41,614 nucleotides of DNA from Zoogloea sp. (lineage in GTDB: Bacteria > Pseudomonadota > Gammaproteobacteria > Burkholderiales > Rhodocyclaceae). Positions 16,933 through 18,289 of the stretch are shown one piece after another. A program made the translations under genes and the position numbers. Within the stretch, counting starts at the first letter, position 1, and each line of letters begins with the position of its first letter. The stretch covers positions 1-41,614 of the forward strand of contig NZ_JAFLDT010000033.1 of assembly GCF_017302315.1 (NCBI RefSeq), given 5' to 3'. The notes under the pieces are model-generated. The model was not told the DNA's origin, ran no database searches, and saw nothing but the letters and a program-made list of their open reading frames with translations.

Positions 16933-16960
16933 TTGACGGCCGGGTGCGCAAAGTTATAAT
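16933..16960 (+). promoter_or_regulatory. Near-consensus sigma-70 promoter of metK
   Basis: TTGACG at 16933-16938 and a perfect TATAAT at 16955-16960 are separated by 16 bases. This is the best promoter match in the window. Transcription would begin near 16967, leaving about 156 bases of untranslated leader before the metK ATG at 17123. Confidence 0.8.
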
Positions 16961-17047
16961 TGTGATTCCGCCGAGTTAATCCGACAACTTGCAGGGCGGG
17001 GGCACAGCGCAGCCAGGCTGCCAGGGCGCCCAAAGAATACTGCTAAA

Positions 17048-17110
17048 GCGTCGCCGCTCCGATGATCCCCAGAGACGGCAACGCCGAACCACTGGGGATT
17101 TTTGTTTTTT
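17048..17110 (+). promoter_or_regulatory. Candidate metK leader RNA: H-type pseudoknot plus terminator
   Basis: Stem A: GCGTCGCCG (17048-17056) pairs with CGGCAACGC (17076-17084), eight pairs and one C-A mismatch. Stem B: ATCCCCAG (17065-17072), in the loop of A, pairs with CTGGGGAT (17092-17099), eight perfect pairs. Together they form a compact H-type pseudoknot with loops of 8, 3 and 7 bases. Stem B is followed at once by TTTTTGTTTTTT, so on its own it reads as an intrinsic terminator; a small hairpin CGGC-AAC-GCCG (17076-17086) inside it competes with stem A. The ribosome binding site GAGGAG begins just behind the T tract. Such a leader before an AdoMet synthetase gene suggests AdoMet- or SAH-responsive control, but it does not match the SAM/SAH riboswitch consensus sequences I can recall. 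Confidence 0.55.
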
Positions 17111-17122
17111 GAGGAGCGTTGC

Positions 17123-18289
17123 ATGGCCCGTGAATTCCTATTTACTTCTGAGTCCGTCTCCGAAGGCCATCCGGACAAGGTCGCCGACCAGATCTCCGAT
17201 GCGGTGCTCGACGCCATCCTGGCCCAGGATCCCCGCGGCCGGGTGGCCTGCGAGACCCTGGTGTCCACCGGCCTGGTAGTGATTTCCGGCGAGATCACCA
17301 CCAACGCCGACATCAACTACATGGATCTCGCCCGCGAGACCATCAAGCGCATCGGCTACGACGATTCCGACATCGGTTTCGACTACAAGAGCTGTGCGGT
17401 GCTCACCGCCATCAACCGCCAGTCTTCCGACATCGCCCAGGGTGTGAATGAAGGCGAAGGCCTCGACCTGGACCAGGGCGCCGGCGACCAGGGGCTGATG
17501 TTCGGCTACGCCACCAAGGAAACGCCGAGTCTGATGCCCTTCCCCATCTACTACGCCCACCGCATCATGCAGCGGCAGGCCGAAGTGCGGAAGGACGGCC
17601 GTCTGCCCTGGCTGCGCCCCGATGCCAAGAGCCAGCTCACTGTGAAGTACGTGGACGGCAAGCCGGTGGCCATCGACACCGTGGTTGTGTCCACCCAGCA
17701 TCATCCGGACATCTCCCATGCCGATCTGACCGAGGCGGTGATTGAGGAGGTCATCAAGCCGGTGCTGCCCAAGGACATGCTCACCGCCAGCACCCGCTTC
17801 CTCATCAACCCCACGGGGCGTTTCGTGATTGGCGGCCCGAACGGTGACTGCGGCCTGACCGGCCGCAAGATCATTGTCGACACCTATGGCGGTGCCGCCC
17901 ACCATGGCGGCGGTGCCTTCTCGGGCAAGGATCCGTCCAAGGTGGATCGCTCCGCCGCTTACGCCGGCCGTTACGTGGCCAAGAACATCGTGGCTGCCGG
18001 CCTGGCCGACAAGTGCGAGGTGCAGGTGGCCTACGCCATCGGCGTGGCCCAGCCGGTCAGCCTGATGGTGGAAACCTACGGCACGGGCAAGATTTCCGAC
18101 GACCGCATTGTCGAGCTGGTGCGTGCCCACTTCGATCTGCGCCCCAAGGGCATCATCGCGGCCCTGGATCTGCTGCGCCCGATCTATTCACGTACCGCCG
18201 CCTATGGCCACTTTGGTCGTGACGAGGTGGATTTCACCTGGGAACATACCGACAAGGCCGCTGCACTGCGTTCCGACGCCGGCCTGTAA
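17123..18289 (+). CDS. metK: S-adenosylmethionine synthetase MetK
   Basis: A 388-residue methionine adenosyltransferase making AdoMet from methionine and ATP. Family signatures are [18 protein letters not shown] near the start (catalytic His and metal ligand), the ATP-binding [12 protein letters not shown], the P-loop-like [19 protein letters not shown], and the C-terminal YGHFGR. ATG 17123 is chosen because [17 protein letters not shown] is the canonical start and GAGGAG lies seven bases upstream. The gene has its own strong promoter and a long structured leader, and is followed by a strong terminator, so it is a single-gene unit. It is intact. Confidence 0.98.

Follow-up and report, generated by a model that had tools for sequence, protein, structure and literature searches.

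The leader of metK in the window (the whole 41,614-nucleotide stretch of Zoogloea sp. DNA that was analysed) is, on comparative sequence evidence, very probably a SAM-sensing OFF switch, namely a variant of the SAM-II-type riboswitch that is uncatalogued in Rfam; we give this reading a probability of about 0.85. Four observations carry it: (i), three helices, P1, P2 and P2a, are conserved and covary; (ii), outer terminator and anti-Shine-Dalgarno stems are supported by comparison among relatives; (iii), a promoter is positioned at P1 and, (iv) covariance models relate the element and SAM-II in both directions. The ligand, the direction of switching and the pairing that would compete with the aptamer are what we infer. 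The initial annotation had proposed an AdoMet-responsive H-type pseudoknot overlapping a terminator. It had the right gene, leader and terminator, and an H-type pseudoknot aptamer is indeed present in the leader, which is probably AdoMet-responsive, but the pseudoknot drawn was the wrong one: the sensor is an upstream element (16967-17053), in which hairpin P1, pseudoknot P2 and helix P2a are laid out as in SAM-II and SAM-V aptamers. Statements taken from the literature below refer to the accessible portions of the cited articles.

Promoter, leader and aptamer

By inspection of the sequence, the leader extends over about 156 bases up to the metK ATG at 17123, and the promoter, leader, stems, T-run and ribosome binding site of the initial annotation are all found where it had placed them. 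The promoter described as near-consensus matches at 11/12 positions, a level reached by 0.2 sites on average in shuffled sequences, and would let transcription start at about 16967, where P1 begins. Among relatives, 109/140 metK-linked leaders have a -10 hexamer (at least 5/6 of TATAAT) that ends 3-15 nt upstream of P1, as against 0-4/140 in five control windows. The upstream regions of metK share the block CGCC-GAGUUAA-n-GACAACUUGC-(A/G)GGGCG, then a variable stretch and then AAAUaCUGCUAAAGCGUC, which corresponds to 16967-17053 in the window. The features of this part are:

16933..16960, + strand: sigma-70-type promoter, TTGACG-16-TATAAT
16967..16972, + strand: P1 5' strand, partner 16995-17000; 5/6 pairs with two-sided changes, 96.9% paired, 54 distinct sequences
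16973..16979, + strand: third strand GAGUUAA, aligned by motif to SAM-V
16983..16985, + strand: P2a 5' strand GAC, partner 17050-17052
16989..16994, + strand: P2 pseudoknot 5' strand UUGCAG, 100% of cells paired
16995..17000, + strand: P1 3' strand, partner 16967-16972; covariation on 55 metK leaders
17000..17031, + strand: insert hairpin between P1 and P2, varying widely in length among relatives
17040..17047, + strand: P2 3' strand CUGC, bulged U17044 and A17045-A17047, placed by alignment with SAM-V contacts from PMC6061858
17050..17052, + strand: P2a 3' strand GUC, partner 16983-16985
17123..18289, + strand: metK, S-adenosylmethionine synthetase, 388 aa; NCBIfam TIGR01034, 615.3 bits (cut-off 309.4)

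Covariation was examined in alignment A1, which holds 55 of the 58 metK loci with a match to our covariance model R1 (L039 was omitted for too little upstream sequence, L041 and L078 because the pattern was unmatched). Across P1 (columns 3-8/32-37), P2 (26-31/106-112, with the bulged U) and P2a (19-22/116-119), 97.4% of 862 cells are paired, and two-sided changes number 112, against 37.8 (sd 7.8) in shuffled alignments and 2-18 when the partners are slid. On four of five measures the observed covariation beats 500/500 shuffles; the fifth, the number of further pair types, shows no excess over shuffles. A1 was collected by a motif pattern that fixes G(A/G)GUUA, ACUUGC and GCUAAAGC, so the invariance of these letters is no evidence of conservation. 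Four of the P2 pairs are fixed in this way; P1, the two variable P2 pairs and the variable pairs of P2a are not. In the 55 leaders the two variable P2 pairs occur as AU28/GC23/GU3 and as GC48/AU6, and the strands of P2a change together, GAC being found with GUC, and GAAC or GAGC with GUUC in 22/22 cases. In a model-found relative, L133, a U-A replaces the otherwise constant P2 pair G-C. The insert measures 0 to 53 in 55/56 listed leaders and 114 in the remaining one. In a nested fold, the leader as a whole shows no gain in stability over shuffled sequences (z -0.57). The "further complementary GC-rich segments" that had been seen upstream thus fall in the region that holds the conserved P1/P2/P2a element, and it is in this element, rather than in the first stem of the pseudoknot drawn, that the suggested covariation test gives clear support.

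Relation to SAM-II and other riboswitch families

No Rfam family reaches its cut-off on the leader (four sub-threshold matches at E≤10), in agreement with the earlier remark that it does not match the consensus of the SAM-II, SAM-V and SAM/SAH riboswitches. RF00521 (gathering score 36 bits) gives no match at E≤10 to the leader or to its compact relative L058, RF01726 gives none to either even at E 10, and Rfam matches of RF01826 (SAM-V) and RF01727 (SAM/SAH) to these two sequences are likewise absent. The metK leader is also absent among the RF00521 matches listed for the whole genome, where 134/679 candidates were scored, and in one tandem RF00521 gives the first copy 35 bits and leaves the second, metK-like copy unrecognised. 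A match to the SAH riboswitch RF01057 was rejected: it reaches 14.4 bits at 17105-17193 against a cut-off of 37 and lies on the ribosome binding site GAGGAGCGUUGC, which as a whole is not common to the aligned relatives.

Three covariance models were used. R1 was trained on A1, the window leader included. R2 was trained on the 39 of the 55 A1 leaders that lie outside the window's family by title or likeness; it omits the window, L001-L006, L024, L038, L052 and L058, which belong to that family by the same standard, and L022, L037, L045, L053 and L067, whose titles are doubtful. R3 was trained on 26 SAM-II copies located before metX, metZ, metH and other genes, none of them at metK; the metX leader of the window genome (L090) belongs to set A6, from which L212, L142 and other intermediate copies were excluded. 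Searching the 4.5-Mb genome, R2 returned the window leader as its sole significant match (60.2 bits, E 1.7e-13; the next had 11.4 bits, E 8). R3 found the metK leader at 34.3 bits (E 1.1e-5); its other significant match was the metX leader (73.4 bits), itself a training row, and the next had an E of 2.5. With the filters off, the R3 match to the window splits into pieces of 27.9 and 10.2 bits because of the insert, the stronger piece taking part of the insert as P1, and R3 scores some long-insert metK leaders poorly (L003, L029, L047 and L075, under 15 bits). Conversely, R1 assigns SAM-II copies scores of about 12-39 bits, in most cases significant. R1 thus finds the SAM-II copies and R3 finds the metK leader, and the element and SAM-II are therefore related.

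The likeness extends to an H-type pseudoknot formed by P1 and P2, an A-rich linker, a bulged U followed by AAA in GCUAAA, a terminator, a gene of the SAM pathway downstream and a promoter just before P1, which has been described for SAM-II as well (PMC1273637). The two also differ: the metK form has GAGUUAA with CAACUUGC and a P2a of GAC/GUC, whereas SAM-II has GAUUUGA with CAGCUUGC; and the metK form is found at metK and carries a variable insert hairpin, whereas the SAM-II copies examined are at metX, metZ and metH. SAM-V (RF01826) shares the pocket letters of the metK element at most aligned positions and, in tandems, takes the place after SAM-II (PMC9481103), an arrangement also seen for metK-like copies in some relatives; SAM-V has a U where the metK form has a G, and a helix P3 that SAM-II lacks (PMC6061858). 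The SAM/SAH riboswitch (RF01727) is, like the metK element, an H-type pseudoknot before metK (PMC2864571).

The window genome also carries, upstream of metX (G000:C122:55168-55247, L090), a SAM_alpha match of 29.6 bits, against a cut-off of 36, with a terminator-like hairpin after it. By its context it looks like the published "metXZ" element, that is, a SAM-II riboswitch. The metXZ RNA element of beta-proteobacteria, a pseudoknot with a terminator before metX and metZ, present in one copy per genome (Leyn et al. 2014, PMC4239095), resembles the metK element in its lineages, its pseudoknot and terminator and its association with methionine genes; its gene context suggests that it is the RF00521-like SAM-II form detected before metX and metZ. 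The accessible part of the same regulon survey, which covers about 200 proteobacterial genomes, names no RNA element for beta-proteobacterial metK and states that SAH riboswitches do not control this gene. Likewise, the report of 44 tandem SAM-II riboswitches (PMC9481103) does not, in its accessible part, mention the metK form, and we found no description of the element in the openly licensed literature.

The proposed binding pocket

The bulged U47 of SAM-V is held by U8 and pairs with the adenine of SAM, the triple U20:A48.U9 surrounds the sulfonium, U19:A49.U10 forms a further triple and A50 contacts the aminoacyl end (PMC6061858). Aligned by motif, the metK form keeps U47, A48-A50, U9, U10, U19 and U20: U17044 takes the position that contacts the SAM adenine, A17045-A17047 the triple-forming and aminoacyl-contact positions, and U16976-U16977 are the equivalents of U9 and U10. 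At the position of SAM-V A18 the metK form has a C, as do the SAM-II copies examined. The change lies at G16975, which stands at the position of SAM-V U8 (the equivalent of SAM-II U10). In other words, the SAM-II pocket set (third strand UUU, P2 UU, bulged U and AAA) is kept except that the first U of the third strand is a G, and the changed position is listed among the conserved SAM-II binding sites (accessible part of PMC11508383), which weighs against the reading proposed here. This G is found in 79/85 model-found metK copies (1 U, 2 A, 3 not read), and U in 27/27 metX/metZ/metH copies (the gene names of the query fragments were checked), a contrast that is less independent than the counts imply because a single genus supplies most of the 12 metX copies and because G-bearing copies served to train the model. 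R1, which may favour G for the latter reason, nevertheless recovered the U-bearing copies. Since a G could donate a hydrogen bond in place of U8, SAM is still the likely ligand of the metK element. Three AT-rich metK leaders from one genus outside the order (L208, L209 and L215) have the same layout with a variant third strand, AAUUUAA or UAUUUAA, and GCUU/AAGC as P2.

Expression platform

Downstream of the aptamer, the leader carries the following features:

17048..17056, + strand: 5' strand GCGTCGCCG of the first stem of the initial annotation, partner CGGCAACGC (17076-17084), one mismatch; a possible antiterminator that competes with P2a
17055..17060, + strand: anti-Shine-Dalgarno CGCUCC, pairing with GGAGCG (17113-17118)
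17064..17100, + strand: terminator hairpin, outer stem 17064-17072/17092-17100, inner stem 17076-17079/17083-17086; -17.5 kcal/mol
17065-17072/17092-17099, + strand: second stem of the initial annotation, ATCCCCAG/CTGGGGAT, present in the sequence
17099..17110, + strand: U-tract TTTTTGTTTTTT, a T-run with one G interruption, with GAGGAG next
17111..17118, + strand: ribosome binding site GAGGAGCG, 3' partner of the anti-Shine-Dalgarno

These stems were compared in 89 leaders (91 collected, L169 and L186 being excluded for lack of a start codon by pattern), and by alignment columns in the 85 rows of A2, from which L004, L102, L112 and L129 were also excluded for long loops. When native partners are compared with swapped ones, the terminator stem scores 18.9 against 15.15 (sd 0.28) and the anti-Shine-Dalgarno stem 14.97 against 13.65 (sd 0.19), whereas the first stem of the initial annotation gains nothing (11.91 against 12.10, sd 0.12). 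This score counts ungapped helices only and therefore undervalues a stem with a mismatch; repeated with duplex energies, the comparison ranks the stems in the same way: -14.41 against -12.09 (sd 0.26) for the terminator and -10.03 against -8.88 (sd 0.15) for the anti-Shine-Dalgarno, with 0/200 swaps as good in either case, and -8.44 against -8.26 (sd 0.13) for the first stem, with 23/200 swaps as good. By alignment columns, the outer and inner terminator stems are 88.7% and 73.8% paired, together 82.5% against 74.9% in shuffles, with 49 two-sided cells against 15.8; the number of terminator pairs with two-sided changes shows no excess (125/500 shuffles). For the first stem, pairing reaches 78.3% (77.3% in shuffles), two-sided cells number 11 (6.7) and covariation is 0.167 (0.139). 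Of the two stems drawn at the outset, the second is therefore retained as part of the terminator, and the first, with its slight excess over column shuffles and no gain in score or duplex energy over swapped partners, was rejected as an aptamer stem.

The hairpin is stable, a U-tract follows it directly and its stem is kept across relatives, as expected of an intrinsic terminator. A simple terminator scan of the leader reported no site, probably since its upper limit for loops, 8, is exceeded here. A strong U-tract (6 T or more within 8 nt) occurs in 51/89 leaders of the family and is missing from the other 38/89; termination is therefore not the sole mechanism in the family. Some relatives probably act on translation.

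Proposed mechanism and alternative explanations

We propose that transcription of metK begins at P1 of an aptamer of the SAM-II type and that the major groove of P2 would receive SAM, U16976-U16977 (and G16975) serving as the third strand. Binding would stabilise P2 and the adjoining P2a, which would occupy GUC (17050-17052), and the RNA downstream would then be free to fold into the terminator hairpin, followed by its U-tract, and into the stem in which the ribosome binding site is masked, so that plentiful SAM would turn metK off. Without SAM, P2/P2a would open and GCGUC would become free; its likely, though unproven, partner is GGCAACGC (17077-17084), and this pairing would break the inner terminator stem. 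Because it shares 17050-17052 with P2a, the first stem of the initial annotation can be at most such a competing ON-state pairing. It overlaps P2a, folds on its own at -15.5 kcal/mol and can form before the terminator is complete, and therefore remains a candidate antiterminator. As this candidate ON-state partner is weakly supported by comparison, the coupling of aptamer to platform is the weakest step of the model.

The third-strand G admits two other readings. It may build a ligand-free hairpin in which GAGUU pairs with AACUU, extending P1, competing with P2 and sharpening the switch. This is compatible with the SAM-sensing switch proposed here, and we regard it as a tentative possibility: the first four pairs can form in 55/55 metK copies, whereas the G-C pair is possible in 0/26 SAM-II copies, and the extension appears in the minimum-energy fold of 20/55 metK copies against 0/26 SAM-II copies; however, it is not favoured in the remaining 35/55, and the paired letters belong to the collection pattern and so lie beyond covariation testing. 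A more radical reading is that the U to G change together with P2a has shifted the ligand preference of a SAM-II relative, for example towards SAH, towards SAM and SAH alike or towards some other derivative of SAM. The near-complete split of G and U between the metK and metX/metZ/metH copies speaks for it, subject to the limited independence noted above, as do the small changes in the SAM-I pocket known to switch the ligand to spermidine (accessible part of PMC10853860) and the SAM/SAH riboswitch that likewise precedes metK (PMC2864571). Yet the metK form retains both uridines that in SAM-V lie opposite the sulfonium and contribute to discrimination against SAH, the G may itself donate a hydrogen bond to the bulged U, and the controlled gene is metK; we consider the shift improbable.

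Readings that dispense with the upstream aptamer fare far worse. That the pseudoknot first drawn (17048-17056/17076-17084 with 17065-17072/17092-17099) is itself the ligand-binding aptamer is hardly credible: both stems exist in the window, the first is stable alone and slightly above column shuffles, but this stem has no clear native-over-swapped advantage in the 89 leaders, the inner hairpin and P2a compete for its strands, and the conserved pocket letters lie upstream. We find it equally implausible that, instead of being a riboswitch, the element is a site for protein binding or transcriptional control or works by leader-peptide attenuation. Covariation acts at the RNA level and includes the pseudoknot, the element has a fixed position just after the -10 box, the model matches with SAM-II run both ways, and the only ATG frame noticed by eye in the leader (17062) is short and not methionine-rich.

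Distribution and gene context

A scan of one-per-species genomes gave 592 metK loci, of which the best 80 were taken and the window added. R1 matches just upstream of metK in 58 of these 81 and not in 23; the element-free loci include records titled Nitrosomonas, Gallionella, Ferrovum, Chromobacterium, Aquitalea, Neisseriaceae and Gammaproteobacteria. By genome, R1 matches in 117/121 members of the window's family at E≤0.01 (105/105 good genomes), in 168/300 of the order (E≤1e-4), in 36/369 of the class (E≤1e-4) and in 44/398 of the phylum (E≤1e-5), counts that include weaker SAM-II matches before other genes, such as the only match in G055, before metX. At the fetched family loci the gene is metK in 80/90, and several of the other ten were chosen deliberately as second copies. 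In one genome outside the window's order (L204, G453:C79), a metK-type element precedes an ORF with a metK-like start (76.8 bits against metK on the 100 residues read).

Other copies were met outside this context. In ten loci (L132, L142, L151, L098, L195, L196, L198, L199, L200 and L205) a metK-like copy lies about 100 nt beyond a SAM-II copy; the tandem of L098 is upstream of metZ, and the ORFs read beside the others include no recognised methionine genes. In L273 (G470:C57), and by likeness in L200, the gene immediately after the tandem codes for an AAA ATPase of the MoxR type (Pfam AAA_5, bpMoxR). L276-L279 have two SAM-II-like copies in tandem, then a small ORF (MYDC...) and then a gene for a MATE-family transporter, as judged by a Pfam run on L276 (no match for the small ORF, MatE for the second) and by eye for L277, L278 and L279. 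In six of the 16 matched genomes of family f170 (L261-L266), a conserved protein of about 100 aa is encoded after a SAM-II-like element with GAUUUA...ACUUGC or AAUUGC, itself preceded at a short distance by TTGACA; the protein had no Pfam match in the one copy scanned. SAM-II-like elements also occur in several copies, with five matches in G386 (L269, L270) and three within about 3 kb in G499 (L268); an HD-domain gene near L269 and, by eye, a recombinase-like ORF in L270 make mobile DNA possible at such sites. L140, L141 and L149 are SAM-II copies with terminator-like hairpins upstream of metH, and the fragment of L140 matches metH.

It is tempting, if rather speculative, to see in GAGUUAA, CAACUUGC and P2a the marks of a separate SAM-II/SAM-V subclass that would be the standard regulator of beta-proteobacterial metK, with a pocket retuned by the U to G change in affinity or in SAM/SAH preference, and whose close relatives, in tandems behind SAM-II, would control genes outside methionine metabolism; we think this doubtful as it stands. 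Rfam-based annotation misses the element because it lies outside the current Rfam models. As a SAM-II-type variant, the element provides a natural single-letter pocket change in a riboswitch type of known structure, with the metX copy of the same genome for comparison, and it would fill a gap in the regulation of metK in many Burkholderiales and in nearly the whole family of the window.
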